In this document: positions 171 to 22,509 of the stretch, piece by piece
How the letters are laid out: the number at the start of each line of letters is the position of its first letter
How positions within the stretch are numbered: position 1 is the stretch's first letter
Virus record (IMG/VR): IMGVR_UViG_3300009008_003208
Span: 1 to 23,903 of that record
Reading direction: 5' to 3' (one strand)
DNA: 23,903 bases
Origin: a virus
Notes under the pieces: model-generated
What the model was told of the DNA's origin: nothing
The model's database searches: none
What the model saw: the letters and a program-made list of their open reading frames with translations, nothing else
Program-made: the position numbers and the translations under genes

Positions 171-1766
171 TCAGTCCAGTGCTATCGCGAGGAAGTCATC
201 GCGGTCGGTGCGGAAGACGTCGTGGAGCGCCATCCAGTCGACTACGCCCACGCGGACCATGGTCTCCGCCGTGAGTCCCTGCCCGCTCACGCAGGCCACG
301 CCGGAGAGCTGACCGATGGTGTTGGGGACAGCAGAGTTCAGCATGACCGGCCAGAGCGTGTAGCTCTCGTCGATGTTCGGATCGAGAAGCGTGAGGCCGC
401 AGGCATAAGGCCAGAGGATGCCGCGGTTCACGAAGTAGGGGCTCCCGTCGTTCTGCCGGCCCGCGAATCCGCGCCAGCCTCCCTCCAGGCCGCGAGCTCG
501 CATCTGATGCCACTCGGGTTCGGTGTTGGTCGTCGTCCCCGGATCCGAGTGAGTGAACGCCCGATGTTTGATCGTCACGTTCGACCAACGCCAATCCGTC
601 GACTCCCACTGCGGCCTCGTCGGGCCGAAGGCGAGGGATCCTCCGAGCGCGATCGGATACGGCCATTGCCCAGGCGAGAAGAAGGGCTCGATGAGTCCGA
701 GATAGCCGAGCTCGTACTGCGTGTTGAGCTTCGCGACGATAAGCGCTCTGCGGCCGTCGGCGACGAACCAGTAAGGGATCGAGTCATTCCAGAGGGGCAT
801 GTAGAGCTTGCTGTGGTGCCCGGCCTGTTCGCGCCAGAGCGACGTCGCGAGATAGGCATCGAAGGCGGCGAGCTCCCAGTTGAAGTAGTCGGCGTCCTGC
901 CGTTCGAAGGCGTGAATGCCGCAGAGGATCTCGGAATCGCCGTCGTTCCCCGGTGCCTGCCAGATCGTCTGCGAGAACGCAGCGTCCACGCCATCGGAAC
1001 GGAGGAGGCGCATGGCTCCCATGTAGAGCCAGGCCGTGCTGGGAAGCTCCGTGATGTGCAGCCGGTATCTGGTCGCCGAGACGGGGGAGGCGATCTCGAA
1101 GGTCTTGATCGCAAGCTCCGTCCAGTCCGTGATGCCCGAGCGCGAGTCCAGGTTCTCCCATGAGTCGCCGTCCCAGTACTGGAACGTCCACGACTTCGGC
1201 AGGTAGTTGGAGTAGTAGTCCATGAACGAGGCGATCTGGTAGCTCGCGATCGTCTCGGACTCGAAGAAGGTGAACTCCACGTTCTGCGGCACTGTGATCG
1301 GGGACTGGACACGCCAGTAGGAGTCCGACGTGCCGTTCTTCCCGTCGACGATGTTCTGGACTGCCTTGATGCCTGTGTTTCCCTGGGTCGCCTCGACCCG
1401 GGCCCCGAGCGTCTTTCGGAGACCCACCCACGGTGGCGCCGTTGAAAGCGTGAAGGCATCGCCGCTCACGAACGGCGTGCCGCCGGCTGAGATCAGGAAC
1501 TCGAGCTTCGCGTGAGCGAACGGAGTGCCGACCGTGGCCGGACCGATGGAGCCGGAGACCGAGCCCACGACATCGAAGGAGCTCGAGGATGTGGCCGTGA
1601 TTGTGAACGTCTCGGCGATTGACGAAGCCCCGCCGGAGTAGCCGGTCAACGTTCCATCTCCGGTGCCCGAATAGGCCAGCCCGAAGGCGGAGCCCTTCGC
1701 CGTGAGGAACGCGTGCAGCCGGTCCAAGAGGTCCGCGTAGTTGCTCGCTGTGCCGGTCGTGAACAT
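171..1766 (-). CDS. Tail-tip/fibre protein with discoidin-like (F5/8 type C) domain
   Basis: This 531-residue protein lies directly downstream of the tape measure gene, 2 bases after its stop, where siphophages encode distal tail proteins. Residues 133-257 look like a discoidin (F5/8 type C) beta-sandwich: a variable first strand pair, then a PKSWTFQYWDGDSWENL segment, a W-T-E-L strand, and a closing R-Y-R-L strand. Such domains bind carbohydrate or other surface ligands. The N-terminus (1-30) resembles the start of the next gene. Residues 60-110 are rich in Ser, Gly and Thr. The C-terminal half is rich in Trp and Tyr and has no family I can name. I infer a host-binding or tail-tip role from position plus the discoidin-like segment. 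There is no signal peptide and no transmembrane segment. Confidence 0.75.
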   Translation of the reverse strand: MFTTGTASNYADLLDRLHAFLTAKGSAFGLAYSGTGDGTLTGYSGGASSIAETFTITATSSSSFDVVGSVSGSIGPATVGTPFAHAKLEFLISAGGTPFVSGDAFTLSTAPPWVGLRKTLGARVEATQGNTGIKAVQNIVDGKNGTSDSYWRVQSPITVPQNVEFTFFESETIASYQIASFMDYYSNYLPKSWTFQYWDGDSWENLDSRSGITDWTELAIKTFEIASPVSATRYRLHITELPSTAWLYMGAMRLLRSDGVDAAFSQTIWQAPGNDGDSEILCGIHAFERQDADYFNWELAAFDAYLATSLWREQAGHHSKLYMPLWNDSIPYWFVADGRRALIVAKLNTQYELGYLGLIEPFFSPGQWPYPIALGGSLAFGPTRPQWESTDWRWSNVTIKHRAFTHSDPGTTTNTEPEWHQMRARGLEGGWRGFAGRQNDGSPYFVNRGILWPYACGLTLLDPNIDESYTLWPVMLNSAVPNTIGQLSGVACVSGQGLTAETMVRVGVVDWMALHDVFRTDRDDFLAIALD

Positions 1767-1768
1767 CG

Positions 1769-4342
1769 CTAGATCCCCAGGGCCGAGCGCACCGCCCGGC
1801 GGTTGTTGCTGAGAGCGCGGATCAGGATCCGCTGGCCTGTCGGCGTGTCCATCTCGCGCAGGACCAGTCCATCCTCGAGGCCGAGTACGAGCCGCCCGTT
1901 CAGGACCCCGCCGTCGTCCGCGACAGCGCCCTTCTCAACGAGGCCTCCCTCCGCGAAGCGCGTGGCGGGAACGTCGGCGATCACAGGCGTGGACACGAGA
2001 GAGCGCACACCCTGGCGGTTCAAGTCCTCGAGGTGCTTGAGCACACCAGGCTGCCGGACGACGGCCGCCCGCACGACGTACTCCTCGTTCGAGAGCCAGA
2101 CGAGGTTCGAGTCGGACGTCCCAGTACCGCGCCCGCGGAAGAGGCCGCCTTCCGCCTTGGCCTCGGCGCCTTCGCCTCCGACGACGCCGCCCTCGCCGAA
2201 GAGCCCCGCGATCTTCTTCACGATCGCGGTGGCGATGAGCTGCGCCGCGAGCCTCCGGAGATCAGCGATGATGGCGAGTGCCATGTCGCGGAAGGCGTCC
2301 TTGAGGGACTTCGAGCCCTCCATGCCCTTGTCGAGGAAGTCCGTGAGGGCATCGGTCGCGGAGTCGAGCGCCGTCTCCTTGAAGCGCCCGAACGAGTCGG
2401 CCGACGCCTGCACGGAGTAGTCGATCTCCCGGATGGCGGCCGCGAAGCTCTGGGCCTGTGCGATCTTCTCAGGGTCTCCCGTGGCCTCGGCAGCGGCCTC
2501 GAGTGCCAGCGCGAGCTCCTTCAAGGTCTCGATCCGGCCCTCCTCGAGCGCCAGGATCTGCACCTCCGCCTCGAACTGGGAGAGGAGCCCGGCCGGCGTG
2601 CGTGCTTCCACTTCCGCCCTTGCGGCCTCGAACTCCGCGAGCGCGGCCTCGGCATCGCGTTTCGCCTCCTCGAAGTCCGCGCCCGCCTCAAGCGCCGCCC
2701 GGAGGCGTGCGAGCACGGCCTCGCGCTTCTCGTCGGAGGTGCCCTGCTTCCTGAGCAGAAGATCCGCCTGTTCGATCTGCTCCTCGAACCCCAGCCGCTC
2801 GGCCTCGATGCGCTTCCCTTGGGCCTCGAGCAACGTCTTCTCAAGAGCGATGCGCTCCCGGGCGATGCTCCTGACGGTCTCCCGCTCCTCGAACAGGAGC
2901 GCACCGACCGCGTTCTCGTGCTCGAGCCTGGCCTTGGCGAGCGCCGCGTCGACCTTCTTCTCTTCCTGCAGGCGCATGCCGGGATCCGTCATCTCATCCA
3001 GGAGCCCGCGCTTCTGCTCCAGGACCGCGAGCTCCTCCTCATACGCGCGGTCGACGATCGCGCGTCGGTCGGCGTAGTAGGTACGGATGTCCTTCAGGCC
3101 CTCCTCGAACGCGCGCTTCTCGGCCGCGCTTCGCAGGCTGGCTGCGGTCTTGGCAAGCGCGAGCTCCCGGTCGAGTGCCATCTGGAGCGCCTGGGCGCGC
3201 TTCGCGGCGAGCTCGGCCGCTTCCTCTTCGATCTCGCCCTCGGCTCCCGTCGTCGTTTCTCCTTCGGCTCTGGGCGGAGGCGTGGACACCGCGAGCTCGA
3301 AGCGCCCTTTCATGCGTTCCCGGATGTTCTCGGCCTCCCTGCCGGCGAACCGACCGAACGTCTGCATGTGCCGCCGCGCGCTGTCGAGGTCGCCGCGAAT
3401 GAGGTCCACGAGACTGCGGATCCCCGCGTCAATCGCACTCATCATCATGCCGAGGTACGTCCCCGCGTAGTCGAAGCCGGCCGAGACTACGGCGACGATC
3501 CACTTGATCACCCGCCCGATGCCCGCACCGAACGACTCCCACGCGTCCGTAGTCTGTGCGAGGTCTCCGCTGATGGTCTGCAGGGCCTGCGATACCTCGG
3601 GCACAAGACCGGCCGCCAGGCGCGTGCCCAACCCCTCGGACTGCGCCTTGAGCAGTTCGAAGTCGTCCTTGATGCGCTCTGCGGACGCCGCGAGGTCGGT
3701 ATCGATGAGCACACCGAGCTCGCGCGCCCGTTCGATCACAGCTCCGAGGCCCTCGTCCGCGAGGTCTTTCATGGTGGGGATCAGGTTCGAGCCGGAGCGG
3801 CCGAAGATGTCCATGGCCGCCTTGCCGCGCTGGATCGGGCTGGGAAGGGCGGTGATCCGCTGCGAGATCAGCTCGAAGATCTCAACGGCGTCCTTGCCCT
3901 TGAAGTCCGCAAGCGTGAGGCCGAGGTCGCGGAATGAGGCGATCGCCTTCGGGTTCCCGGCCGCGGCGTCGCCGATGTATTTGTTCTGCTTGGCGAGTGC
4001 CTTGGCCACTTCCTCAAGGCTGGAGCCGGAGATCCTGGCGACGAGATGGAGTGCGGAGAGGTTCTCTACGGCGGCGCCGACACGCTTCCCGGTCTTGGCG
4101 ATCGCGTCGGCGGCATCGACGGCGCCACGGATCCATCGCTGGAACTGGTGGACGCCCAGCGCTAGCCCTAGGCCGCCCAGCAGGTTCCTGGTGCTTCCGA
4201 GGATGCGGTTCAGGCCCTGGAAGCCGCGCGACTGCTTCTGGGCCGTTCTCTGCGATTCGGCCTGAACGCGCTTGAGCGCCGCGACGACCTCCGCGACGCC
4301 TTCAGCCGAGAGTCTTACCCTGACGTCGGGCCTACCAGCCAT
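1769..4342 (-). CDS. Phage tail tape measure protein
   Basis: This 857-residue protein is the longest in the tail operon. It has the expected layout of a tape measure, the scaffold that sets tail length and is ejected with the DNA. Residues 1-250 resemble the N-terminal part of tape measure proteins (a helical stretch, then GRSGSNLIPTMKDLADEG around 181-198). A hydrophobic segment lies at about 278-302. Residues about 370-580 are long, charged, coiled-coil-like helices. A second hydrophobic helix spans about 686-715, and a Gly-rich C-terminal part carries SNEEYVVRAA at about 751-760. The start overlaps the end of the chaperone G-T reading frame by 11 bases. At roughly 0.15 nm per residue, the general rule for this family, the tail would be near 120-130 nm. 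Confidence 0.95.
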   Translation of the reverse strand: MAGRPDVRVRLSAEGVAEVVAALKRVQAESQRTAQKQSRGFQGLNRILGSTRNLLGGLGLALGVHQFQRWIRGAVDAADAIAKTGKRVGAAVENLSALHLVARISGSSLEEVAKALAKQNKYIGDAAAGNPKAIASFRDLGLTLADFKGKDAVEIFELISQRITALPSPIQRGKAAMDIFGRSGSNLIPTMKDLADEGLGAVIERARELGVLIDTDLAASAERIKDDFELLKAQSEGLGTRLAAGLVPEVSQALQTISGDLAQTTDAWESFGAGIGRVIKWIVAVVSAGFDYAGTYLGMMMSAIDAGIRSLVDLIRGDLDSARRHMQTFGRFAGREAENIRERMKGRFELAVSTPPPRAEGETTTGAEGEIEEEAAELAAKRAQALQMALDRELALAKTAASLRSAAEKRAFEEGLKDIRTYYADRRAIVDRAYEEELAVLEQKRGLLDEMTDPGMRLQEEKKVDAALAKARLEHENAVGALLFEERETVRSIARERIALEKTLLEAQGKRIEAERLGFEEQIEQADLLLRKQGTSDEKREAVLARLRAALEAGADFEEAKRDAEAALAEFEAARAEVEARTPAGLLSQFEAEVQILALEEGRIETLKELALALEAAAEATGDPEKIAQAQSFAAAIREIDYSVQASADSFGRFKETALDSATDALTDFLDKGMEGSKSLKDAFRDMALAIIADLRRLAAQLIATAIVKKIAGLFGEGGVVGGEGAEAKAEGGLFRGRGTGTSDSNLVWLSNEEYVVRAAVVRQPGVLKHLEDLNRQGVRSLVSTPVIADVPATRFAEGGLVEKGAVADDGGVLNGRLVLGLEDGLVLREMDTPTGQRILIRALSNNRRAVRSALGI

Positions 4343-5047
4343 TCCTGCGCCGTCCTCTCAGGATCTCGGGGACCGCAGGAGGACGTGGCCTTGAGCCCTT
4401 CCCGTAGTGCGGGGCCATCACGCACCAGCAGAGGAGCCGGTGCCGGTAGTCCTCGAGCGCCGCCGTTCGCATTCTCACGCGGTAGGAGTCGAGAGCCGCC
4501 CGGAGAGGCCAGCGGAAGATCCGTTCCGCGTGTTCGTGGTCCCCTTGGCCGAGCTCGAGGACGAGCCCTGTCCAGGACCCGTAGCGCCCGGGCTCCGTCG
4601 GCCCTTCCTCGTGCTCGGGACCGCCCCGTCTGAGGACGTCATCGAAGTCCGCAAGGAGACGATCCCGCTCTCGACAAAAGGGATGAGAAGCGAGAGCACG
4701 AGGCCATGGATCTTGTCCTTGTCCTCGGGCTTCTTGAGCCCGCCGATGAACCGCGCGGTCTCCTCGGCCATCTCCCGGGTCCAGGCCTCGCCAGGGTCCC
4801 TTCCGCGCGGGACCGCCTCCTCTGGAACGAGAAGGCATCCGAGGATCTCGAGGATGGCTGCGCTCTCGACCGCCGCCTCAAGCAGCCTGCGCGCGAAGCC
4901 TTCCGGGCTCTCCCCTGGCTCTAGGGTGACCTCGTCGAGCCGCGCCCGCTTGACCAGCGCGAGGAACCGGAAGTCCTGCTCGACGGTGGACTCCTTGATC
5001 GTGAGGAACGTCCGTCTCCCGAGAACGTGCTTCTCGGTCATCGCCAT
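4332..5047 (-). CDS. Tail assembly chaperone, G-T fusion made by -1 frameshift
   Basis: Lambda-like phages make a short chaperone G and, by rare -1 slippage, a longer G-T that recruits tail tube subunits to the tape measure. Here translation starts at 5047 (ATG overlapping the major tail stop as TGATG), reads 124 codons to 4676, slips back one base on CCCTTTT (4676-4682), and continues in the -1 frame to TAG at 4332-4334, giving about 238 residues. After the slip the protein reads CRERDRLLADFDDVLRRGG and ends with a Tyr/Trp/Cys-rich segment (YRHRLLCWCVMAPHYGKG) that looks like real protein. In the -1 frame the upstream part is only an Arg/Gly-rich shadow. Position between tube and tape measure genes fits exactly. 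The fusion product is inferred; the heptamer and both frames are seen. Confidence 0.87.
4475..5047 (-). CDS. Tail assembly chaperone G (unshifted product)
   Basis: Reading straight through from ATG 5047 to TGA at 4475-4477 gives 190 residues. The first 124 are well-formed (MAMTEKHVLGRRTFLTIKES, then an acidic helical region) and match a G-type chaperone in size. The 66 residues after the slippery site are rich in Ser, Thr, Gly and Arg and look like unselected read-through of the other frame. A second ATG at 5041 is also possible. I chose 5047 because it couples to the upstream stop. The longer frame reported upstream of 5047 overlaps the major tail gene and is not the real start. Confidence 0.8.
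   Translation of the reverse strand: MAMTEKHVLGRRTFLTIKESTVEQDFRFLALVKRARLDEVTLEPGESPEGFARRLLEAAVESAAILEILGCLLVPEEAVPRGRDPGEAWTREMAEETARFIGGLKKPEDKDKIHGLVLSLLIPFVESGIVSLRTSMTSSDGAVPSTRKGRRSPGATGPGQGSSSSSAKGTTNTRNGSSAGLSGRLSTPTA
4676..4682 (-). promoter_or_regulatory. Programmed -1 ribosomal frameshift site (slippery heptamer)
   Basis: Read on the minus strand the heptamer is CCCTTTT, in phase as C_CCT_TTT. This fits the X_XXY_YYZ rule for -1 slippage. Both tRNAs can re-pair after the slip (CCT to CCC, TTT to TTT). It sits at codons 123-124 of the chaperone, and the -1 frame becomes protein-like from exactly this point. I could not assign a downstream stimulatory structure with confidence. 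Confidence 0.87.
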
Positions 5048-5814
5048 CACGCGATCCTGATGAGCCTGTAGTGCGGCTCGTTGGGGTGGTTCGCAGCGTC
5101 GGACTCGATGTCGCCGGTCAAGGTGAAGCTCGCGTATTCGTCGGCGATGAACCCGATCGCCCCGTCGGCTCGGACCGAGGCCCGCCAGATCTCGCACTCG
5201 TACTTGGGCCCTCGCGCGGGATCGCCGATGAACCGCAGATATCCCTTGATGGAGGTCTGGTTCATGCCGCGAATGGTGGGGAGGGCGATCGTCTCGTATG
5301 TGAAGTCGACCTCGATGTCCGTGTCGTCGGTGATGTCGCCGCCCTCGACGATGTAGATGCGGCCGCTCACGGCGTCGACCTTGTAGTCGTCGTCCACGAC
5401 GTAGGTAGGCGTACCGCCTGAGCCGGTCACCGTCACGAGGCTTACGTCACGCTTCGTGAGCGGGTAGTAGCGGCCCTGAAGAACGCTGTCGATCTCCTCC
5501 GCCGTGACCGAGGAACCGGTCTGTGTGAGCGTCGCGGTGTCCCCGAAGAGCGCCATCGCGAGGTTCTCCTTCGAGAACTCGTCCCCGACGATCCTGAGCG
5601 CGAGCGTGGTCCTCAAGACGTCCGAGGCGATGAGGTCCGCCGCCTTGTCCGCGCTCGAGTACTTCTTGATGTCCTCGGAGGTTGGAGTGATCTCGAAGGT
5701 CGGGCAGTTGCCGAGGAAGAACTCGCCCGTCCTAGCGCCGCTCGTATCGAACCGGTCGAAGTAGATCTTCCCCCGGCCGAGCAGGATGTTGTTGCCGTTC
5801 ACAACCTCGGGCAT
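5047..5814 (-). CDS. Major tail (tube) protein
   Basis: This 255-residue protein starts at ATG 5814, preceded by a strong AGGAGG on the minus strand. It lies immediately upstream of the tail chaperone pair, the standard place for the siphovirus tube subunit. The sequence is beta-rich: an N-terminal NNILLGRGKIYFDRFD segment, then ITPTSEDIKKYSS, a typical pattern of tube proteins in which the subunit is described by strands and short loops, and a C-terminal FTLTGDIESD. I infer that the protein polymerises into the hollow tail tube around the tape measure. A Thr/Val-rich stretch (residues about 125-165) may be an inserted loop or Ig-like extension. The stop overlaps the next start by one base. 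Confidence 0.88.
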   Translation of the reverse strand: MPEVVNGNNILLGRGKIYFDRFDTSGARTGEFFLGNCPTFEITPTSEDIKKYSSADKAADLIASDVLRTTLALRIVGDEFSKENLAMALFGDTATLTQTGSSVTAEEIDSVLQGRYYPLTKRDVSLVTVTGSGGTPTYVVDDDYKVDAVSGRIYIVEGGDITDDTDIEVDFTYETIALPTIRGMNQTSIKGYLRFIGDPARGPKYECEIWRASVRADGAIGFIADEYASFTLTGDIESDAANHPNEPHYRLIRIA

Positions 5815-5844
5815 GGTTTCCTCCTGGCGGTGCGGTCCGCGGCC

Positions 5845-6315
5845 CTACGCCACGGCTTCCGCGTCGTCCGCCCGTGACTGGTACTCGATCCGAAACGTCA
5901 TCGTCGCCCGGCAGAACGATGTCTCGCCCTGCTCGTACTCGAACTTCGTGCCGACCTCGTCCGCCGGTTGGTTCGCGAGTCCGCCGAAGTTGCCGGCCGC
6001 TCCGAACGCCTTCGTCGCCCAGGCGAGGATGGGATCGGCCGCCTTGTCCGGCTCGGCGCCCTCGTCGGCCTTCGTAATCACCTCGATGTTCAAGATGAGC
6101 GTCCGACGGACGATGGGGCCACGGCTCGTGCCGCCGGCCTTGTAGTCGCGCATCGTCTCGACAGTCTCCGCCGCCTGGTAGACGGTGAGTGCCGGGAGCT
6201 GGTCGGCGCTCGGGGAGTCGAGTCGCGTGCGCACGGGCGCGGGGACACCGGAGGGAGCTCCGGTTCCGAGTGCCGTGACGGCCGAGGCGACGATCTGCTC
6301 GCGGATCGTGCTCAT
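5845..6315 (-). CDS. Tail terminator-like protein (gpU-type)
   Basis: This 156-residue protein is encoded between the head-tail joining protein and the tube protein, where lambda-like phages carry the tail terminator that caps the tail and binds the head. It begins with a helix (MSTIREQIVASAVTAL) and a LPALTVYQAAETVE strand. An RRTLILNIEVITKAD strand follows, and it closes with TMTFRIEYQSR. This is the alpha/beta layout of minor tail protein U-type families. Its ATG overlaps the stop of the upstream gene (ATGA), and a GAGG sequence lies just before it. Identification is by fold-like pattern and position, not by a diagnostic motif. Confidence 0.72.
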   Translation of the reverse strand: MSTIREQIVASAVTALGTGAPSGVPAPVRTRLDSPSADQLPALTVYQAAETVETMRDYKAGGTSRGPIVRRTLILNIEVITKADEGAEPDKAADPILAWATKAFGAAGNFGGLANQPADEVGTKFEYEQGETSFCRATMTFRIEYQSRADDAEAVA

Positions 6316-6620
6316 GGTTTCCTCAATGCGACGCGCGTCATCGCTCCGTCTCCGTAGGTGAGAACCTTCAAGACCACGTAGTCGGTGCCGTCCACGGTGA
6401 CCGGCACGCCCGAAGCGAGGCCGGGAAGGGCCCCGCTCCGGACGTGGACGGTCTCGTCAGCCGCAACGACCGCTGGCATCTCGCCTCCCAGGATCTCCAC
6501 GGCTTCACGATCGAGGAGCCCGGTCACGGTCACATCGCCCAGCGTCACGGCCACGCCGCCTCCGGCCTCCTCGAGATCGGCCAGCATCGCCGCGACGTCC
6601 GCTTCACCGAGAACCGCCAC
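6312..6620 (-). CDS. Head-tail joining protein (gpFII-like)
   Basis: This small protein (102 residues) starts with GTG at 6620, two bases after the upstream stop. It has an N-terminal helix (EADVAAMLADLEEAGG) followed by beta strands (VAVTLGDVTVTGLLD, TVHVRSGALPGL, PVTVDGTDYVVLKVL) and ends RVALRKP. This pattern is typical of the head-tail attachment proteins of the lambda FII type, which sit between the connector and the tail terminator. The GTG start is supported by tight spacing and by the coding pattern beginning there. Function is inferred from pattern and order. Confidence 0.7.
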   Translation of the reverse strand: MAVLGEADVAAMLADLEEAGGGVAVTLGDVTVTGLLDREAVEILGGEMPAVVAADETVHVRSGALPGLASGVPVTVDGTDYVVLKVLTYGDGAMTRVALRKP

Positions 6621-6622
6621 GG

Positions 6623-7012
6623 CTAGCTCGCCTTCTTGATCCCGATGAACTCCGCGCCGAAGTCGAACGAGGGTGTCGTTCCGGCGATGGTCCCGACCAC
6701 GCGGACGTACCGCTTGAGATCGGAGACGTTCACCTTGAGGACCTGGACGCCGGCGGTGCCCGCGACGTCGGTGACCTGCGTGAATGTCCCGCCGGTCACG
6801 TCGGCGTAGGTGGAGTCGTCGTCCGAGTGCTGGAGCTTCGCATCGAGCGTCGGCGTGGTGCCCGTGCCCGCGGATGCGTTGAGCACGGCGAGCGCGACGC
6901 CCTCGTAGTCGAGGACGTCGATCCCCGTGCCCTCGACGGTCGCGTCGTAGCTGGCCGCCGGAACGAGCACGAGTCCGAGGGTCTGCGCCAGTGCGTTCAG
7001 AAGATGGGTCAT
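6623..7012 (-). CDS. Small virion protein, possible capsid decoration/cement
   Basis: The chosen start is ATG 7012, giving 129 residues. It is preceded by GGGAGG and the TAA of the upstream gene. A longer frame reaches 7261 but overlaps that gene and reads as Arg/Pro-rich shadow. After a short hydrophobic N-terminus (MTHLLNALAQTLGLVLVPAA) the protein is beta-rich, with TPTLDAKLQHSDDDSTYADV and a VTDVAGTAGVQVLKVNV strand, and ends FDFGAEFIGIKKAS. Proteins with this pattern lie next to phage capsid genes. I infer a structural or capsid-stabilising role, but see nothing that proves it. Confidence 0.6.
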   Translation of the reverse strand: MTHLLNALAQTLGLVLVPAASYDATVEGTGIDVLDYEGVALAVLNASAGTGTTPTLDAKLQHSDDDSTYADVTGGTFTQVTDVAGTAGVQVLKVNVSDLKRYVRVVGTIAGTTPSFDFGAEFIGIKKAS

Positions 7013-7016
7013 TCCG

Positions 7017-7325
7017 TTACCTCCCGCCGGTCTTGGGCCGGCGCCTGCGCGTGCTCTTGGGTGGTTTGGTGTCGGGGTCCCGGCTCTCCAACTCCGGGTC
7101 CGCATGTGCAACGACGGCGGGCCCCGCGCCCTCGTCTGTCTCTGGCGGGGGCTCGGGCTCGCCCAGGATGATCCGGGCGTAGCCCATGCGGACCTTCTTC
7201 CTCGCGTCCGCGATGGAGAGGTCCCTCGGGGCCACGAGGACCTGCCCGGGGAAGACGTCATTCCCTTCGCCGCCCAGGCAGTGCCCCGTCGTGATCTCGA
7301 TCGTGATCTTCACTTGGTCAGCCAT
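7017..7325 (-). CDS. Small phage protein with basic, Pro-rich C-terminal tail
   Basis: This 102-residue protein follows the capsid gene by 8 bases, with an AGGGGGG just before the start. The first 60 residues (MADQVKITIEITTGHCLGGE, then PGQVLVAPRDLSIADARKK) form a compact alpha/beta unit. It resembles the small domains encoded between capsid and connector genes in many siphophages. Residues 60-102 are Pro/Glu/Asp-rich and end in a cluster of Arg and Lys (STRRRRPKTGGR), perhaps a disordered nucleic-acid-binding or assembly tail. I do not recognise a specific function. Confidence 0.65.
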   Translation of the reverse strand: MADQVKITIEITTGHCLGGEGNDVFPGQVLVAPRDLSIADARKKVRMGYARIILGEPEPPPETDEGAGPAVVAHADPELESRDPDTKPPKSTRRRRPKTGGR

Positions 7326-7333
7326 GCGCCCCC

Positions 7334-8698
7334 CTACGAGATCGTGGCGCCCGTGCCCTTCACGAACGACTCGCCTCTACGGACGGCCGTGTCGCCCATC
7401 GAGTAGCTCGTGATGAGGATCTGGCCGCGCGCCGCCTTGGTTACGACGTCGACGACGATCTCGAGGTCATTTCCCCACATGCCGATCAGGAGGTCGTTCC
7501 AGTTGCCGAAGATGAGCCCGTGCTCGTTCGAGCCCGCGCCGAGCGTCTTCGAGATCTGGTTTGTGGTCCGGCCGGGGTAGCCGCCGAGCTCGCCCTCGCG
7601 GTACGTGCCGACCCAGAGGAAGACGGGGTAACCGGACACAACCGGCGTGCGCTTGAGCACGCCCGCCATGAGCGGGGTGGTCATCCAGGAGAGGGACCCG
7701 AGGTCGGCGTTCTTGTCCGCGACGAGGGCGGGCATCGTGGTGATGTCCTCGAGGTCCGGGACACCGCCCACGGGATGCGACTGCACGTCGGCCGCCGAGT
7801 AGATGCCCACGGGCTGCTTGTCCGTGCCCTTCCCGTGCAGCGCCCCGAGGTCGAGCGCCAGGCCGTGCCCGGTCGCGAGGTCGCTCCGGATGTCGGCCTC
7901 GACGTCGATCGAGGACATGACAAGCAGCTGGCGCGGGATCTGGACCTGGCCGATGAGCGTCTTCGGGGAGAGGGAGACGTACCCGTACGCGGGCTCCGAC
8001 TGCGGGGCGTCCGCCGGAGGGTTCTCCTCCATCCACGTGACGGAGGGCGCCCCGGTCTTCTTGTTGAAGTAGACGACGCCCTGAAGGCCGGGGAAGAGCC
8101 GCGCGCCGGCCACCAGCACGAGGGCGCGGTTCCTCAGGAGGTCGATCATGTCGGGCATGACCTGCTGGCCGACGAGGGTCGCCCCGCCGGTGGGCTGCGT
8201 CGTGCCGAGGACGCGCGCGCCGTCCAGCCCGAGCTCATCGTCGCCGCGCATGCGCCACGGGACGAGGATCCCGCCATGGTCCGCGCCCGTGCGGTGCTTG
8301 GCGAGCTCCTCGTGGACCTCAGCCTCGAGCCCGTCGTACCGGCTCCGCTTGCCGTCCATGATCTCGGCCTGCATGCGGATCGCGCGGTGGACCGAGTAGC
8401 GCTTCTTGTCCTTAGCCGGCATCGCCTCGAGCGACTCAGCCGACGGCTGGCCCGGGCCGCGGGTTCTGACGGCGTTCAGGATCTCTCGCGAGACTTGGTC
8501 GGGTGTGAGGCCCCGGCGGATCCACCCGGCCGCCTTGTCGGTCATCCCGTGTGCCTGGGCCATCTCCATGATCTCGGCCGCCTCGGCTCCTCTGTCGCGG
8601 ACCTCGACGTGCTCGGGCGGAGTCTCCTTCGGCGTGGCCACGACCTCGGGCGGCTTCGCCGGGGTCTCGGTGGGCTGCGTTCCTGCTGCCGTGCTCAT
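7334..8698 (-). CDS. Possible nested capsid-only product from an internal start
   Basis: Within the protease-capsid fusion, in the same frame, ATG at 8698 (Met208) would give a 454-residue protein made of the delta-domain-like segment plus the capsid. It is preceded by GGAAGGAG (8707-8714) with an 8-base gap, better than the site before the full-length start at 9319, where no strong Shine-Dalgarno is visible. Dual production would give excess capsid over protease. This parallels nested protease/scaffold genes such as lambda C/Nu3, but it is inferred from sequence and may be coincidence, since the bases also encode T-E-G-E. Confidence 0.55.
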   Translation of the reverse strand: MSTAAGTQPTETPAKPPEVVATPKETPPEHVEVRDRGAEAAEIMEMAQAHGMTDKAAGWIRRGLTPDQVSREILNAVRTRGPGQPSAESLEAMPAKDKKRYSVHRAIRMQAEIMDGKRSRYDGLEAEVHEELAKHRTGADHGGILVPWRMRGDDELGLDGARVLGTTQPTGGATLVGQQVMPDMIDLLRNRALVLVAGARLFPGLQGVVYFNKKTGAPSVTWMEENPPADAPQSEPAYGYVSLSPKTLIGQVQIPRQLLVMSSIDVEADIRSDLATGHGLALDLGALHGKGTDKQPVGIYSAADVQSHPVGGVPDLEDITTMPALVADKNADLGSLSWMTTPLMAGVLKRTPVVSGYPVFLWVGTYREGELGGYPGRTTNQISKTLGAGSNEHGLIFGNWNDLLIGMWGNDLEIVVDVVTKAARGQILITSYSMGDTAVRRGESFVKGTGATIS

Positions 8699-9319
8699 CG
8701 TGCATTCTCCTTCCGTGGCCGGTTCCTCGACCGTGAGCTCAATGAGATCGACGTCCGCCGCGTCGGCGCGGCCGAAGCCGACCTTGTGGTCCGCCGGGAT
8801 CGGTTCGGTAGAGACCTCGTAGGGCATCCACGTGCATCGGTAGGTGGCGATGCCGGTCTTCTTGTCCTTCGAGACCATCTCCATCGAGAGGACCTGGTAG
8901 CCGACCGACACCGTCGCGATGTGCCCCTCGCGGAGCATCGTCTCCTGCTCTTGGCCCAGCGGAATGGATGAAAAGCTCGCCATGCCTCGCAGGCGCTTGC
9001 GCTTCTCGTCGAGCTCGACGTCCGTTACCGAGCCGAAGTGCATGAGCCGCTGGTGTGACTTGATGAGGGGGAGACCGTTCTTCGCGCGGGAGAGGTCGAC
9101 GTCGCCCGGAGCGTGGGAGAGGATCTCGTCATAGTCCTCCCACGTGTCCCACGAGAACCGGCGGACGGGCTCTTCGCTCGAGAAGGAGACGGGATAGAGC
9201 CGGACCTCGTCCTCGCCGCCGTCCGCGCGGGATTCGAGCTCCACGTCGAAGTCGCGGTACTGGATGCGCGGCACCTTGATGGTGCGCGTCTTCCTCGTGT
9301 CGATCGGTGCGTTGCTCAT
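7334..9319 (-). CDS. Prohead protease-major capsid protein fusion (HK97-like)
   Basis: One 661-residue frame joins two proteins that are usually separate. Residues about 20-205 resemble HK97-type prohead proteases (peptidase U35): a His motif LPLIKSHQR (H89), a Ser motif TVSVGY (S138), and MPYEVSTEPIPAD with a candidate acidic residue. A Pro/Glu-rich linker and a helical delta-domain-like segment (about 208-340) follow. Residues about 340-661 form an HK97-fold capsid protein (VWYF-poor N-arm, YGYVSLSPKTLIGQVQIPRQ around 445-463, and a C-terminal GMWGNDLEIVVDVVTKAARGQ). The protease matures the capsid by cutting the delta domain. The gene heads the minus-strand late operon. An internal ribosome binding site and ATG (8698) may also yield the capsid part alone. 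Confidence 0.93.
   Translation of the reverse strand: MSNAPIDTRKTRTIKVPRIQYRDFDVELESRADGGEDEVRLYPVSFSSEEPVRRFSWDTWEDYDEILSHAPGDVDLSRAKNGLPLIKSHQRLMHFGSVTDVELDEKRKRLRGMASFSSIPLGQEQETMLREGHIATVSVGYQVLSMEMVSKDKKTGIATYRCTWMPYEVSTEPIPADHKVGFGRADAADVDLIELTVEEPATEGECTMSTAAGTQPTETPAKPPEVVATPKETPPEHVEVRDRGAEAAEIMEMAQAHGMTDKAAGWIRRGLTPDQVSREILNAVRTRGPGQPSAESLEAMPAKDKKRYSVHRAIRMQAEIMDGKRSRYDGLEAEVHEELAKHRTGADHGGILVPWRMRGDDELGLDGARVLGTTQPTGGATLVGQQVMPDMIDLLRNRALVLVAGARLFPGLQGVVYFNKKTGAPSVTWMEENPPADAPQSEPAYGYVSLSPKTLIGQVQIPRQLLVMSSIDVEADIRSDLATGHGLALDLGALHGKGTDKQPVGIYSAADVQSHPVGGVPDLEDITTMPALVADKNADLGSLSWMTTPLMAGVLKRTPVVSGYPVFLWVGTYREGELGGYPGRTTNQISKTLGAGSNEHGLIFGNWNDLLIGMWGNDLEIVVDVVTKAARGQILITSYSMGDTAVRRGESFVKGTGATIS
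8707..8714 (-). promoter_or_regulatory. Internal Shine-Dalgarno site in the capsid fusion gene
   Basis: Read on the minus strand the bases are GGAAGGAG, followed by 8 bases and ATG 8698. This is a near-ideal match to the 16S rRNA tail and to the preferred spacing. An out-of-frame ATG at 8705 is too close (1 base) to use it. It decides the nested capsid start if used. Confidence 0.6.
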
Positions 9320-9409
9320 GCGTCCACTGATGACGCATCCGAGAAGAGCGCACCAAACTAAATGTCATTTAGGTTGGTCGGCCTTCTCGCGGTGTGTCAG
9401 CGTGACCGC
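9320..9409. promoter_or_regulatory. Divergent intergenic region with probable promoters
   Basis: This 90-bp gap separates the minus-strand capsid operon from the plus-strand gpW-like/portal genes. It should carry promoters in both directions, and it is more AT-rich at 9353-9377 than the flanks. I could not fit a good -35/-10 pair in either direction. The main feature is the palindrome annotated separately. The position is inferred to be the switch point between two late operons. Confidence 0.5.
9353..9377. repeat. 25-bp imperfect palindrome at the divergence point
   Basis: The left arm CCAAACTAAAT (9353-9363) and the right arm ATTTAGGTTGG (9367-9377) pair at 10 of 11 positions around a GTC centre. 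The only mismatch is A9357 opposite G9373. The AT-rich core stands out in GC-rich DNA. It could be an operator for a dimeric regulator of the two divergent operons, or a recombination site. It also overlaps an upstream ATG (9362) of the plus-strand gene, which argues that the true start is the later one at 9410. Confidence 0.6.
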
Positions 9410-9967
9410 ATGACACAGGAGCTCACATCACTTCCTGAGTCGTTCGCGGCCGGCACGACGGTGAAGTACCGGAGACGGTTCACCGACTACCCGGCAAGCG
9501 ACGGCTGGACGCTCAGGCTCCATCTCGCGGGTGCTAGCGTGCTCGCCAAGACCGCCGACGCGGACGGCGACGACTTCATCCTGACGATCGCCGCGGATGA
9601 CACCGGAGGCGCGTTCGCTGCCGGGCTCTACAAGTGGGTGGAGCGCGTCAGCAACGCGGCGGGGGAGGTCTACGAGGTCGCGTCGGGCATCGTCACGATC
9701 CTTCCGAACCTCGCCGAGGCGACTGAGGGAAGCGAGCAGGAGTGGCTGGAGCGGGCCATCGCCGCCCTGAAGTCGCACATCGAGGGGCGGCTGCCCACGG
9801 CGATGGAGTCCTACCAGATCGCGGGCCGCGCGGTCTCCAAGATGCCGGTCAAGGAGGCCGTCGACCTCCTCACGAGCCTCGAGTCCCGCCTCGCGCGCCT
9901 GAAGAACCCGAACTTCGTGACCCGGCCAGTGCTCGTCTCGTTCACCGGAACGGGGTTTGACCGATGA
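9410..9967 (+). CDS. gpW-like head-tail connector protein with an extra N-terminal domain
   Basis: The chosen start is ATG 9410 (MTQELTSLPESF), giving 185 residues. An earlier ATG at 9362 lies inside a palindrome and adds a poorly coding 16 residues. Neither start has a strong ribosome binding site. Residues about 1-105 are beta-rich (VKYRRRFTDYPASDGW, GLYKWVERVSNAAGEVYEVA, GIVTILPNLAEA). Residues about 110-185 resemble gpW: LERAIAALKSHIEG, SYQIAGRAVSKMPVKEAVDL and LESRLARLKNPNF. Lambda gpW plugs the portal after packaging and is encoded next to it, as here. The stop overlaps the portal start as ATGA. I infer a two-domain version of gpW. The N-terminal domain is unknown. Confidence 0.7.
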   Translation: MTQELTSLPESFAAGTTVKYRRRFTDYPASDGWTLRLHLAGASVLAKTADADGDDFILTIAADDTGGAFAAGLYKWVERVSNAAGEVYEVASGIVTILPNLAEATEGSEQEWLERAIAALKSHIEGRLPTAMESYQIAGRAVSKMPVKEAVDLLTSLESRLARLKNPNFVTRPVLVSFTGTGFDR

Positions 9968-11538
9968 CGCGGCGGCCCTTCCATCAGCGGCTGGGCCGGG
10001 CGTTCCGGCTTGCCTGGCGGGAGGTCCGGGGCGCAAGGGGCGTCTTCGACGGGGCAGGCGTCCACCGGCTCCTGCTCGACTGGATCGCGCAGTCCCGCAC
10101 GGCGGACGACGAGATCCGTGGCGACATCAGGCTGCTCCGCGCCCGGGCACGCGAGCTCGGGCGGAACAACAGCTACGTCAAGCGCTACTTCCGGCTGCTC
10201 ACGAACAACGTGATCGGGCCCATGGGGATCAAGCTCCAGGCTCAGGCGCGGAGGGACGGAGAGCCGGACGCGGAGGTGAACGCCGCCATCGAGGCCGCGT
10301 GGAACGACTGGGCGAACTCGCCGGTCACCGTCGATGGCAGGCTCACGCTCCGCCGGTTCGAGAAGGTCATCCTGAAGACGATGGCCTGCGACGGCGAGGC
10401 GTTCGTGCGGCTTTGGAGAGGGTTCGAAGGGAACCCCCACCGCCTGGCCGTCCAGGCGATCGACGCAGATCTCATCGACGAGACCTTCAACCGTCCGCGC
10501 AGGGGGAGCGAGAACGAGATCCGGATGGGCGTCGAGGTCGACGCGCTCTCCCGGCCGGTCGGGTTCTGGGTGTGGAACAAGGGCGCTGCGTCCATCGTAG
10601 ACATCATGCGCGAGCGCTACTTCGTGCCAGCCTCGGAGATGCTCCACCTCTATGACCCCGAGCGCGTGAACCAGACCCGCGGGGTCACGTGGGTCCACTC
10701 GGTCATGGTTCCCGCGCACATGCTGAACGCCTACGAGGAGAGCGAGGCGGTCGCCGCGCGCATCGGCGCCTCGAAGATGGGCCTCTTCGAGAAGCGGTCG
10801 GACTCGGTGGTGGGGGACCTTGCGAGCGACGCGAGCCCGGCTGGGATGGAGGCCAACCCCGGCACGTTCGAGATCGTCCCTGACGGCTACGAGTTCAAGG
10901 CGTGGGAGCCCGAGCATCCGACGGCGCAGTTCCCGGCCTTCATCAAGCAGATGCTCCGCAAGATCGCCTCCGGGTTCAGTGTGTTCTACAACGTGCTCGC
11001 CAACGATGCCGAGGGCGTGAGCTACTCCACGATGCGTAGCTTCGCGCTCGTCGAGCGCGACGACTGGCGTTCCATCCAGCAGGACCTCATCGACATGTGG
11101 CGGCGGCCGCTCTACTCCGCGTGGCTCGGAATGGCGCTTCTGTCGGGAACGCTCAAGCTCGGTTCCCGCGATCCGTCACGGTACACGGCCGTCAGGCATA
11201 GGCCTAGAGGCTGGCAGTGGATCGACCCGGAGAAAGAGGCGAAGGCGGCCGTGCTCTCGATCCAGAACGGGCTCGGCACGCGCACCGGGTTCCTCGCCGA
11301 GAAGGGCGAGGACATCGAGGACGTGTTCGCCGAGCTCGCACGAGAGCAGGCGCTGGCAGAGCAATACGGCATTGCAATCTCGGAAGGCGCGGGTGCGTCC
11401 GAGGAGAAGCCCGAGAGCGAAGAGGATGAGTCCGCAGAGACACAGAGCCCCGGCGGGAACGGCGACGGGAGCAAGGCGGGCCCAGCCGTCTTGACCGGGC
11501 GGCATCAGGGTGTAGTGGCAGTGAGGCCGGGCGCGTGA
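9964..11538 (+). CDS. Portal protein (lambda gpB-type)
   Basis: This 524-residue protein has the lambda-type portal pattern. It starts with a basic N-terminus, then an Arg-rich helix pair (RARELGRNNSYVKRYFRLL, about 61-79), NNVIGPMGIKLQAQ, a FEKVILKTMACDGEAFVRLW core, LAVQAIDADLIDET, and VFYNVLANDAEGVSYSTMRS with ERDDWR after it. The portal is the dodecameric ring at one capsid vertex through which DNA is packaged and ejected. The last 60 residues are acidic and low in complexity (Glu/Ser/Gly-rich), a likely disordered tail. It overlaps the gpW-like gene by 4 bases, which suggests coupling. It points away from the capsid gene, which is unusual. Confidence 0.95.
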   Translation: MTRRPFHQRLGRAFRLAWREVRGARGVFDGAGVHRLLLDWIAQSRTADDEIRGDIRLLRARARELGRNNSYVKRYFRLLTNNVIGPMGIKLQAQARRDGEPDAEVNAAIEAAWNDWANSPVTVDGRLTLRRFEKVILKTMACDGEAFVRLWRGFEGNPHRLAVQAIDADLIDETFNRPRRGSENEIRMGVEVDALSRPVGFWVWNKGAASIVDIMRERYFVPASEMLHLYDPERVNQTRGVTWVHSVMVPAHMLNAYEESEAVAARIGASKMGLFEKRSDSVVGDLASDASPAGMEANPGTFEIVPDGYEFKAWEPEHPTAQFPAFIKQMLRKIASGFSVFYNVLANDAEGVSYSTMRSFALVERDDWRSIQQDLIDMWRRPLYSAWLGMALLSGTLKLGSRDPSRYTAVRHRPRGWQWIDPEKEAKAAVLSIQNGLGTRTGFLAEKGEDIEDVFAELAREQALAEQYGIAISEGAGASEEKPESEEDESAETQSPGGNGDGSKAGPAVLTGRHQGVVAVRPGA

Positions 11539-15030: not shown

Positions 15031-17391
15031 ATGAATGAGGCCGACACCTGTCGTCGCTACGTGGTTCCCAAGCTTCAGGAAGCAGGCTGGGACGACGAAC
15101 CACATCGCATCAACGAGCAGGTGACCTTCACGGACGGGCGTATCGTCGTGTCTGGACGCAAGGGCCATCGTCGACCGGGCAAGCGTGCTGACTACATCCT
15201 CCGCTACCGGGCGGACATGCCGATAGCCGTGGTTGAGGCCAAGCCCTCCTACGCGACCCCTGGCCAGGGGCTGCAACAGGCGAAGGAGTACGCAGAGATC
15301 CTCGGCCTCAAGTTCGCCTATGCCACGAACGGTCGCGGCATCATTGAGTTCGACTACACCACCGGCCGGGAAAGAGAGGTCGATGTCTTTCCCGAGCCGG
15401 ACGAGCTGTGGGCGCGTGTCACGGCCGCTGAGTCCCTAGCCTCCGAGGCCGTGGAGACGCTCCTCACTCCCGCCTACCGCCTCGCTGGGAAGTCCCCACG
15501 GTACTACCAGGAAATCGCCATCAATCGCGCCGTTCAATCCGTGCTCCAGGGACGACGTCGGATTCTGCTCACCATGGCCACGGGGACGGGCAAGACCTTT
15601 GTAGCATTCCAGATCTGCTGGAAGCTCTGGTCTTCCCGCTGGAACCGGACGGAAGAGTACCGCCGGCCACGCATCCTCTATCTGGCCGACCGGAACATCC
15701 TGGTAGATGATCCCATGGCCAAGACCTTCACAGCATTCGGTGACGCGCGCTGGAAGATCACCGGCGGCGTCGCCAACAAGAGCCGGGAGATGTATTTCTC
15801 CATCTACCAGGCAATCGCACGCGACGATCGCCGCCCGGGTCTTTACCGCGAGTATGCGCCCGGGTTTTTCGATCTGATAGTCGTGGACGAGTGCCACCGT
15901 GGAAGTGCCAAGGATGAGAGCAACTGGCGGGAGATCCTCGAGTACTTCAGCCCGGCCTTCCAGATTGGGATGACTGCGACGCCCCGTCGAGATGATAACG
16001 CGGACACTTATCGGTACTTCGGCGATCCGGTCTACCAATACAGCCTGCGCCAGGGCATCGAAGACGGTTTCCTCGCCCCCTACCGCGTTCACCGAGTGAT
16101 CACATCCTGGGATGCAGCTGGTTGGCGTCCCAGCCACGGGGACCTGGACCGCTTCGGTCGCGAGATCCCGGATGAGGAGTATCACACCAACGACTTCGAG
16201 CGGGTGGTATCACTGCGCGCGCGGACGGAGGCGGTCGCGCGCCACGTAACCGAGTACATGAAGAAGACAGACCGCTACGCCAAGACCATCGTGTTCTGTG
16301 TGGACCAGGAGCACGCCGACGAGATTCGTCGTGCCCTGAACAATCTGAACGCGGACCTCGCACGAGCGCACCCTGACTTCGTGTGCCGAGTGACATCGGA
16401 TGAGGGCGGGGTAGGTCGAGGGCACCTAAGCAACTTCCAGGATGTGGAGAGGCGCACTCCGGTGATCCTCACCACCTCGCAGATGCTGACTACCGGAGTG
16501 GATATGCCGACGGTGCAGAACGTAGTTCTCGTCCGCGTCATCAAGTCGATGACCGAGTTCAAGCAGATCATCGGGCGGGGCACACGTGTTCGCGACGACT
16601 ACGGCAAGCTGTTCTTCAGCATCTTGGACTACACAGGCTCGGCGACCCGCCTGTTCGCCGATCCCGACTTCGACGGAGACCCCGTCATTGAGACGGAACA
16701 ACGGATCGACGAAGAAGGCCGGCCCACCGAGGGCGAGGTTGTGCTTACTCCCGAAGAGCCGTGGGAAGATATGGAGCGAGTTGCGGAGTCGGAGATTCCT
16801 TTCGGGGAAGACCGCCCGCGTAGGAAGTACTACTTCGACGGGGGTCATGTCGAGATCGCGTCTCATTTGGTCTACGAGCTCGACGCCGACGGCAAGCAAC
16901 TTCGCGTGATCAGCTTCACCGACTACACAGCTGAGCGGGTGCGGACTCTCTTCACCAATGCAGCGGACCTCCGCAAGGGGTGGGCTGACCCGGACCGTAG
17001 GACGCAGATCATCGACAGACTAGCGGAGCGCGGAATCGACTTCGACCAGCTGGCGGAGGCGGCGAATCAACCTGGCGCAGATCCCCTCGATCTCCTCTGC
17101 CACTTCGCGTTCAATGCTCCTCTAAGGTCGCGACGCGAACGGGCGCAGCGCCTCCGCTCTGAGAAGAAGGACTTCTTCGAGCAGTACGGACCGGAGGCTA
17201 GGGAGATCCTAAACGAATTGCTGGACAAGTACACGGAGCACGGCGCGGCGCAGTTCGTCGTGCCCGATGTGCTGGAGGTGCCCCCGATCAGCGAACGAGG
17301 CAATGTGATCCAGATCGCCCGCTATTTCGGAGGCGAGGACAGACTGGCAAGGGCCGTCAGGGAGTTACAGACGCTACTGTACGCGGCATAG
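15031..17391 (+). CDS. hsdR: Type I restriction enzyme R subunit (HsdR)
   Basis: This 786-residue protein is the motor and nuclease subunit of a type I restriction complex. It translocates unmodified DNA and cuts it at a distance. An N-terminal PD-(D/E)xK nuclease is visible (RADYILRY with D54, then AVVEAKPSY with E69 and K71). Superfamily 2 helicase motifs follow: Walker A ATGTGKT at 183-189, DECH at 286-289, TATP at 315-318, and IIGRGTRVRDDYGK around 513-525 as motif VI. The C-terminal 270 residues are charged and resemble the EcoEI-type R C-terminus, which contacts the methylase core. It is compact but within the range for EcoEI-like R. It is followed by hsdM nine bases later. Confidence 0.97.
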   Translation: MNEADTCRRYVVPKLQEAGWDDEPHRINEQVTFTDGRIVVSGRKGHRRPGKRADYILRYRADMPIAVVEAKPSYATPGQGLQQAKEYAEILGLKFAYATNGRGIIEFDYTTGREREVDVFPEPDELWARVTAAESLASEAVETLLTPAYRLAGKSPRYYQEIAINRAVQSVLQGRRRILLTMATGTGKTFVAFQICWKLWSSRWNRTEEYRRPRILYLADRNILVDDPMAKTFTAFGDARWKITGGVANKSREMYFSIYQAIARDDRRPGLYREYAPGFFDLIVVDECHRGSAKDESNWREILEYFSPAFQIGMTATPRRDDNADTYRYFGDPVYQYSLRQGIEDGFLAPYRVHRVITSWDAAGWRPSHGDLDRFGREIPDEEYHTNDFERVVSLRARTEAVARHVTEYMKKTDRYAKTIVFCVDQEHADEIRRALNNLNADLARAHPDFVCRVTSDEGGVGRGHLSNFQDVERRTPVILTTSQMLTTGVDMPTVQNVVLVRVIKSMTEFKQIIGRGTRVRDDYGKLFFSILDYTGSATRLFADPDFDGDPVIETEQRIDEEGRPTEGEVVLTPEEPWEDMERVAESEIPFGEDRPRRKYYFDGGHVEIASHLVYELDADGKQLRVISFTDYTAERVRTLFTNAADLRKGWADPDRRTQIIDRLAERGIDFDQLAEAANQPGADPLDLLCHFAFNAPLRSRRERAQRLRSEKKDFFEQYGPEAREILNELLDKYTEHGAAQFVVPDVLEVPPISERGNVIQIARYFGGEDRLARAVRELQTLLYAA

Positions 17392-17400
17392 GGAAAGAAC

Positions 17401-18972: not shown

Positions 18973-20113
18973 CTGGCCGAGAGTGCCCATTGGTGAAGTC
19001 GCACACCCCGTTCGACGTCCGGAGAGTCCTGTTCCGGGACACGGATATCGGCAAATCGGGGTCCGCCTCTGGGGAAGAGGCGCGTACGAGCGAGAGATGC
19101 TCGACGGCTCAGCGACGCGGTACTCCGTGCTCTATCGCGTCGAGGCTGACGACATTATCGTCAACAAGATATGGGCTCGCCATGGCAGCGTCAGTGTAGT
19201 TCAGGATGGTCTCGCAGGATGCTACTGCTCGGGGGAATTCCCCCTCTACAGGCCGAACTCATCGGCCTTGCTACCGCGGTGGTTCTACTGGATTACAAGA
19301 GCGCGTTGGTTCTGGTCTGCCTGTGAGAGCGCTTCGCGGGGCACTACTTCCAAGAGCCGCATCCGCCCGGAAGCCTTCGCTGCAATCAGCATTCCATTGC
19401 CGGACCCAGCAGAGCAGGAACGTCTCATCGTCAAGCTCGATACCTTGGCGACAAAGCTGGAGCACGCCCGCGATAGCTATCTGCAGATGGAACAGGAAGC
19501 CGAAGCCCTTCTCCGCAGTGTTATTGCGCGGATCGTCTCAGGTGCACCTCTGCGCAAGATGGATGACGTGGCGCCGCTGGTACGCCGCCGAGTCGCGATT
19601 CGCCCGGGCGAGGAGTATCCTGAACTCGGCATTCGTTCCTTCGGGAAAGGGACGTTTCACAAGCCCGCACTCGACTTCCTGAGCGTTGGCACGAAGCGGC
19701 TCTTCTGCATAGAACCCGGCGATCTCCTTTTCAGCAATGTCTTCGCGTGGGAGGGAGCAATCGCCGTTGCCGGACCAGAGGACGAAGGGCGCTTCGGGTC
19801 ACATCGTTTCATCAGCTGCGTGCCGAAGGAAGGAGTCGCAATTCCGGAGTTCCTGTGCTTCTACTTCCTGACGAGGGCGGGACTTCGGAGAATCGGCGAG
19901 GCCGCGCCGGGGGGAGCCGGAAGGAACCGGACCCTCGGGCTTGCGAAGCTCGCGGAGATTGAGGTTCCCGTCCCGGAATACGACAAGCAGATCTGGTTCA
20001 ACCGCCTCCGGGCGAAGGTGAGCGAGATGCTGGCGTCGCAGCGGGACGCGGAAGCCGAACTTGACGCCATGCTGCCGTCGATCCTGGACAAGGCGTTCGA
20101 AGGGGAACTGTAG
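18962..20113 (+). CDS. hsdS: Type I specificity subunit (HsdS)
   Basis: This 383-residue protein sets the recognition sequence. Two target recognition domains (about 1-145 and 195-335) are each followed by a helical coiled region (about 150-192 and 340-380). The two domains resemble each other: IGVRLWGRGAYER...VNKIWARHGSVSVV and LGIRSFGKGTFHK...LFSNVFAWEGAIAVA share positions. Each probably reads one half of a bipartite target. It has both domains, so it is full-length. It starts 11 bases inside hsdM. Translation likely depends on coupling plus a GGGGGAAG upstream. Confidence 0.95.
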   Translation: MASSWPRVPIGEVAHPVRRPESPVPGHGYRQIGVRLWGRGAYEREMLDGSATRYSVLYRVEADDIIVNKIWARHGSVSVVQDGLAGCYCSGEFPLYRPNSSALLPRWFYWITRARWFWSACESASRGTTSKSRIRPEAFAAISIPLPDPAEQERLIVKLDTLATKLEHARDSYLQMEQEAEALLRSVIARIVSGAPLRKMDDVAPLVRRRVAIRPGEEYPELGIRSFGKGTFHKPALDFLSVGTKRLFCIEPGDLLFSNVFAWEGAIAVAGPEDEGRFGSHRFISCVPKEGVAIPEFLCFYFLTRAGLRRIGEAAPGGAGRNRTLGLAKLAEIEVPVPEYDKQIWFNRLRAKVSEMLASQRDAEAELDAMLPSILDKAFEGEL

Positions 20114-20204
20114 ACACAGCACGAGCAGGAACACTGGCAAGTCAAAAAGGGCTGGTTGATTCGTTCCTTGAGAGGCCAGAGACGAGAAGACGAAAGACAG
20201 ACTC

Positions 20205-21236: not shown

Positions 21237-21319
21237 CATCATGGTGCTCGTGCGCATCGGGAGTGGTCACGTGCCCGCGTCGGAGCACTGAGGATCCAGC
21301 AAGCAGAGAGGCCACGTTG

Positions 21320-22411: not shown

Positions 22412-22509
22412 TGTCAGGAGCCCGATCGCACCAGAAGCTCGATGTCCCCACGACGGAGATACGCAGGCCCTTTCCTAGTGGGGTCAGGTAACAAGCGAAC
22501 GGAGAGCCC

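Follow-up and report, generated by a model that had tools for sequence, protein, structure and literature searches.

A conserved internal Shine-Dalgarno site and start codon in phage protease-capsid fusion genes suggest two nested products from one gene

The fusion gene and its domains

The window, by which we mean the whole 23.9-kb virus record analysed here, carries on its minus strand a single open reading frame that starts with a prohead protease, continues with a helical scaffold (delta) domain and ends with an HK97-fold capsid protein (Table 1), in agreement with the first-pass annotation, which had described protease and capsid as one frame. The capsid part contains a Phage_capsid domain (PF05065) at residues 379-656 (E-value 5.6e-30, 105.1 bits against a Pfam cut-off of 24.2), and its best PDB fold match in Foldseek is the capsid of roseophage R4C (8gta_A, E-value 1.7e-19), with the HK97 capsid (1ohg) also matched by fold; domain and fold together identify it as an HK97-fold major capsid protein. 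The protease part matches Peptidase_S78 (PF04586) at residues 61-176 (E-value 4.5e-5), with 24.1 bits against a cut-off of 21, and has the conserved catalytic histidine and serine expected of an S78 prohead protease. For the capsid part, phmmer gives an E-value of 1.3e-29; for the fusion, PHROGs returns phrog_617 (2.6e-84), labelled major head / major head and protease protein. The NCBIfam family NF045541 (prohead protease/major capsid protein fusion) has the same domain order and is matched in part (residues 39-307, E-value 7e-45), but at 153.8 bits the window protein falls far below the family cut-off of 525 and is not a member; the homologues from R4C, VP882, ECO1230-10, Mica, phiHAP-1 and S-LBS1 score 170-202 bits.

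Domain boundaries were taken from an AlphaFold model built with 79 sequences (pLDDT 80), an earlier model from 12 close sequences (pLDDT 32) having been set aside. In the model, the protease fold, predicted with a pLDDT of about 80-95 over most of its length, ends with a last strand at residues 192-199. Confidence then drops below 50 at residues 204-237, the stretch that contains Met208, and a second low-confidence stretch at 366-386 precedes the capsid. Met208 is placed at the boundary between protease and scaffold, just past the last protease strand, so that translation from this codon would yield a product of 454 residues consisting of scaffold plus capsid.

Table 1. Features of the fusion gene in the window
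Feature	Position	Strand	Basis or remark
Protease-scaffold-capsid fusion gene, full-length product	7334..9319	(-)	single 661-aa ORF
Prohead protease domain, residues 10-199	8723..9292	(-)	Pfam, homologue conservation, AlphaFold model
His89 of protease	9053-9055	(-)	conserved in at least 90% of 79-90 homologues
Ser138 of protease	8906-8908	(-)	invariant in 79-90 homologues
Hypervariable linker, low confidence, residues 200-242, contains SD and Met208	8594..8722	(-)	alignment, pLDDT
Internal Shine-Dalgarno (SD) GGAAGGAG	8707..8714	(-)	sequence; 8-nt spacer to ATG
Internal start codon ATG, Met208, followed by STAAGTQ	8696..8698	(-)	in frame
Putative internal product, scaffold plus capsid precursor, 454 aa	7334..8698	(-)	sequence and family conservation
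Helical scaffold (delta) domain, residues 243-341	8297..8593	(-)	model helices, pLDDT mostly 85-90
Mature HK97-fold capsid, residues 379-661	7337..8185	(-)	Foldseek, phmmer
Gly379, aligned with N-terminus of R4C virion capsid chain	8183..8185	(-)	predicted maturation cleavage region, low-confidence loop 366-386

A Shine-Dalgarno site within the frame

The SD sequence that the first-pass annotation had reported 8 nt upstream of the in-frame Met208 lies exactly there, and its duplex with the anti-SD CACCUCCUUA has a computed energy of -8.8 kcal/mol. The SD before the first ATG of the gene reaches only about -2.5 to -3.0 kcal/mol, which bears out the earlier statement that the internal site is the stronger of the two and places the first ATG among the most weakly marked starts of the window's structural genes. 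The SD of the major tail gene has an energy of -10.3, and the other genes in the window mostly lie between -5 and -12, which indicates that the virus does use SD sites. Relatives sit in metagenome-assembled genomes (MAGs) labelled Krumholzibacteriia, Verrucomicrobia, Fibrobacter and others, and in two of these MAGs, which carry close relatives, the canonical 16S tail CACCTCCTT is present.

When the codons of the window gene were shuffled synonymously with the residues fixed, about 63% of the draws produced an equal or better SD, and the window sequence by itself was dropped as evidence for an internal site. Since the codons of Glu-Gly-Glu tend to resemble an SD, the one in the window, considered alone, could be due to chance. 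RNA folding at the internal site is unremarkable (z 0.2), Rfam returned no structured RNA element, and a consensus search of positions 8500-9700, which covered sigma-70-type promoters only, found none that could give a separate capsid mRNA.

One base past the SD, an out-of-frame ATG opens an 89-aa frame (8436-8705, minus strand). It arises from a TGC codon in the window, where the closest relatives have CGC. The relatives lack this ATG, and the small frame is probably meaningless.

Conservation across homologous fusions

Homologues with identities down to about 30% were gathered from four viral scans, one genome scan and annotated phages. In a first set, all 76 distinct genes and all 18 isolated phages had an in-frame ATG in the linker. 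The isolates with a linker ATG include Vibrio phage VP882, Halomonas phage phiHAP-1, Dinoroseobacter phage R4C, Rhodobacter phage RcCronus and Escherichia phage ECO1230-10, as well as the Pseudomonas phages Persinger and PPpW-3, Burkholderia phage Mica, Achromobacter phage Mano, Xanthomonas phage Murka and Synechococcus phage S-CBS3. Among the matches listed, 233 of 234 distinct homologous fusions have such an ATG; methionine is fairly common in these proteins, and its presence alone is moderate evidence, weaker than that of methionine together with an SD. In L150, the sole fusion lacking the ATG, a correctly spaced AGGAGG (-10.3) precedes a GTG instead.

The SD itself could be evaluated with no choice of start in linkers that contain a single methionine. 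In 55 clusters of these (70% identity) its mean energy is -7.7, as compared to -2.8 for the remaining in-frame ATGs of these genes, which number about 1,200 (p about 2e-21), and across 41 clusters (60% identity) it exceeds synonymous shuffles in strength (Wilcoxon p 2e-8), the clusters in both statistics being not fully independent. The shuffle test is conservative, because the encoded residues are themselves already under selection. A profile of 7-mer pairing with the anti-SD has one peak, of -5.6, at positions -13 to -7, where controls are at about -0.6, and is flat elsewhere. Once the relatives are counted, the combination of internal SD and start codon is far beyond chance.

The conservation is that of a site in a region that otherwise diverges. 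At 15 close loci the linker varies by insertions, deletions and substitutions, yet the pattern xEGERxM(S/N) stands out, and in a 12-sequence alignment, one member of which is only 61% identical, no column from residue 184 to residue 244 is invariant except G204, E205 and M208. In a Jilinvirus-like clade, sequence conservation restarts exactly at the internal methionine. Codons 203 and 204 are GAA GGA in all 18 close relatives, although in those genes GAA accounts for 24% of glutamate codons and GGA for 10% of glycine codons; only 16% of invariant columns in close genes use a single codon, and codon 204 is the sole column frozen as GGA among 46 invariant glycines.

Conservation in homologues had been named beforehand, in the first-pass annotation, as a point on which its proposal could fail, and the proposal withstood this check. 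Start and SD are kept across the 234 fusions and the encoded residues are not: up to and including the start methionine they read, for instance, EGERTM, KEKEM, KDKGVEM, IRGAEM or FEDSRM, and in one gene the start is GTG. This bears directly on whether a peptide signal around Met208, such as a protease cleavage site or a linker motif, is what is conserved, with the resemblance to an SD a by-product of Glu, Gly and Lys codons. Close relatives do share Glu-Gly-Glu-Arg, and processing is known for fused proteins of this type, but processing is known to occur some 170 residues further along the chain, the residues differ family-wide while the property of the DNA stays, and synonymous codons are constrained. 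The GTG-bearing gene, with valine and AGGAGG where the others have methionine, keeps the start codon and not the amino acid, which a peptide motif would not explain. We consider a peptide signal very improbable.

The same observations weigh against the site being a vestige, that is, the old ribosome-binding site of a once-separate capsid gene, retained after fusion and no longer of consequence. Unfused adjacent genes do exist: in Cellulophaga phage phi39:1, the genes for a 200-aa protease and a 439-aa capsid protein overlap by 1 nt. A vestige would be expected to decay, yet the site is still present in the 234 genes, at identities as low as about 30%, within linkers that are otherwise dissimilar, rare codons are frozen, and the change to GTG preserves a start codon. 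We looked for close relatives without the fusion in which the capsid would begin at this position and found none; the unfused phages AS1, phiKO2 and phi39:1 have other delta domains. Such a relic is, in our estimate, highly unlikely.

None of the 234 genes has a stop or a frameshift in the linker, while the rest of the linker is not kept, and this openness of the frame indicates that the fusion product is retained as well; a long form of no use would be expected to have lost its frame in some lineages. Together, an unbroken frame and a conserved second start argue that both products are under selection, with the qualification that the scans contributed their best 80 matches each and that such ranking favours uninterrupted matches.

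Some isolates depart from the general pattern. The Synechococcus phages S-LBS1 (L108) and S-CBS3 (L115) keep the internal ATG without an SD (0.3 and 2.4 kcal/mol), as might be expected in a host that relies less on SD sites. The internal SD is weak in Murka, Mica and Mano, and the 5' SD equals or exceeds it in strength in Persinger, Mano and S-LBS1. A good 5' SD combined with a weak internal SD, as in the last three, is what would be seen if full-length chains were all that matters, each subunit bringing one protease and the internal site being used too little to count; virions, which show just the mature capsid and cannot distinguish its precursors, are compatible with this as well. However, the SD contrast strongly favours the internal start in the window and its close relatives, and a T=7 shell with some 415 proteases would, we reason, have far more than it needs. 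We regard a full-length-only gene as improbable.

For two fusion genes, those of phiHAP-1 (L117 425-2233) and MQ-4 (L121 362-2332), the true start may lie upstream of the annotated one; in phiHAP-1, protease homology already extends ahead of the annotated ATG.

Comparison with known systems

The closest structural counterpart is the R4C capsid gene (vBDshSR4C_006), whose product is a 629-aa protease-scaffold-capsid fusion, only about 30% identical to that of the window. Its Met189, behind an SD, aligns with window Met208, and its Gly362 with window Gly379, so that R4C residues 362-629 are equivalent to window residues 379-661. In the virion structure (PDB 8gta) the capsid chain comprises residues 362-629 and is present in 415 copies (PMC10276861). 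The chain starts well past the internal methionine, and residues 1-361 are missing from the virion model. The structure paper uses neither the word protease nor the word cleavage and does not treat the fusion or the internal start (PMC10276861). In the window virus, a 454-residue species or an N-terminus beginning STAAGTQ, which the first-pass annotation had proposed to look for in proteomic data, would probably be missed in virions even if the proposal is right: maturation as in R4C, with a cut at the equivalent of residue 379, would remove both candidate N-termini, and a virion test would mislead.

Tailed phages and herpesviruses must place few proteases among hundreds of shell subunits. The usual solution is separate genes or nested protease/scaffold genes, whereas in the present gene protease and capsid are joined in a single chain. 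The protease gene C of phage lambda has an in-frame internal start from which the nested scaffold product Nu3 is made, and herpesvirus UL26/UL26.5 combines a protease-scaffold precursor with an abundant nested scaffold form. The herpesvirus arrangement differs from the window's in using nested transcripts, not an internal ribosome site, and a separate capsid gene. HK97 gp4/gp5 resembles the window protein in its S78 protease, delta-type N-terminal capsid scaffold, capsid fold and maturation cleavage, but these are encoded by two genes, while the window has one frame, in which a second start appears to govern the ratio.

Mu I/Z is an established case of an in-frame internal start within a protease gene, and another has been proposed in gene 27 of the Pseudomonas Mu-like phage PaMx73 (PMC4378225). 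These genes and lambda C/Nu3 have in common with the window an SD-preceded internal start, which in the window falls where the protease domain ends, a short form free of protease, in the window a predicted one, and a C-terminal part common to both forms, by which the long form can join assembly. They differ in the nature of the short product, which is scaffold only, the capsid gene being separate; in the window, and likewise in the homologues used, the frame runs on through the capsid, to position 7334 in the window, and the short product would be scaffold plus capsid.

Another protease-scaffold-capsid lineage, found in Gram-positive phages (L283 24521-26710, from Lactobacillus phage SA-C12; L284; L286) and unrelated to the window's, also has an SD-preceded in-frame start past the protease domain. 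These starts, located at the protease end, are TTG163 in SA-C12 (-12.1), TTG196 in VFW (-10.2) and ATG184 in S-CoN_Ph8 (-12.2). In SA-C12 the capsid is fused too, and a further candidate start, ATG376 (-8.9), lies at the point at which the separate capsid gene of VFW and S-CoN_Ph8 begins. This solution may have evolved on more than one occasion.

A probable mechanism for setting protease dosage

On the basis of these data, we propose, with a probability of roughly 0.86, that the gene yields two nested proteins from one mRNA, a long minor and a short major form. Ribosomes would only rarely start at the first ATG, with its weak SD, to give the 661-aa protease-scaffold-capsid chain, and would frequently start at Met208 to give the 454-aa scaffold-capsid chain without protease. 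Long and short chains would co-assemble via their common scaffold and capsid parts into a shell in which short chains predominate and the less numerous long ones carry the protease inside. The fused protease would then remove everything before about Gly379, namely the scaffold, or the scaffold plus the protease, leaving identical mature capsid subunits. An excess of short over long chains is suggested by SD strength, the first SD being weak in the window and its close relatives. That an internal start produces a chain without protease had been anticipated by the first-pass annotation; the conservation of the site supports this part of the claim, but the product would be scaffold (delta) plus capsid and not, as supposed there, capsid alone.

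We consider it likely that the widespread 'major capsid protein' genes of this kind are dual-product genes with an obligatory, universally conserved internal site, in which the relative strength of the two starts sets the dose of protease. The searchable literature, a scope outside which most subscription papers fall, yielded no description of such a start in fusions of protease and capsid, nor any proteomic or profiling data showing both products in cells. If the proposal is true, the conserved second start would solve the protease dosage problem and explain the evolutionary stability of the fusion, and hundreds of genes now described as 'major capsid proteins' would have their annotation corrected. 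Expression from the internal start alone would be predicted to give protease-free shells.

Other features of the window

Two divergent operons share the head genes: those for connector and portal lie at 9410-11538 on the plus strand, and protease-capsid and tail genes at 171-9319 on the minus strand, an arrangement that recalls P2. Of the ORFs examined in the 23.9-kb fragment, none was recognised as a terminase gene. Between the connector/portal and protease-capsid genes lies a 27-bp dyad, ACCAAACTAAAT-GTC-ATTTAGGTTGGT (9352-9378), the arms of which form 11 of 12 pairs in the window and 12 of 12 in many relatives. It is conserved in close relatives within variable surroundings; two relatives (L010, L015) differ at and beside the centre, and a third (L041) has a changed sequence that is still a dyad. 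The dyad probably serves both head operons as a common operator or late-activator site. For the connector, ATG 9410 is the probable start; the listed ATG at 9362 falls inside the dyad.

Beside the phage genes, at 15031-23244 on the plus strand, are ORFs that look like defence cargo. Judged by eye, they comprise what reads like a type I restriction-modification set (15031-20113) and an Mrr-like nuclease (20205-21236); a further ORF (21263-22411) has a sub-threshold match to GMT-wHTH.
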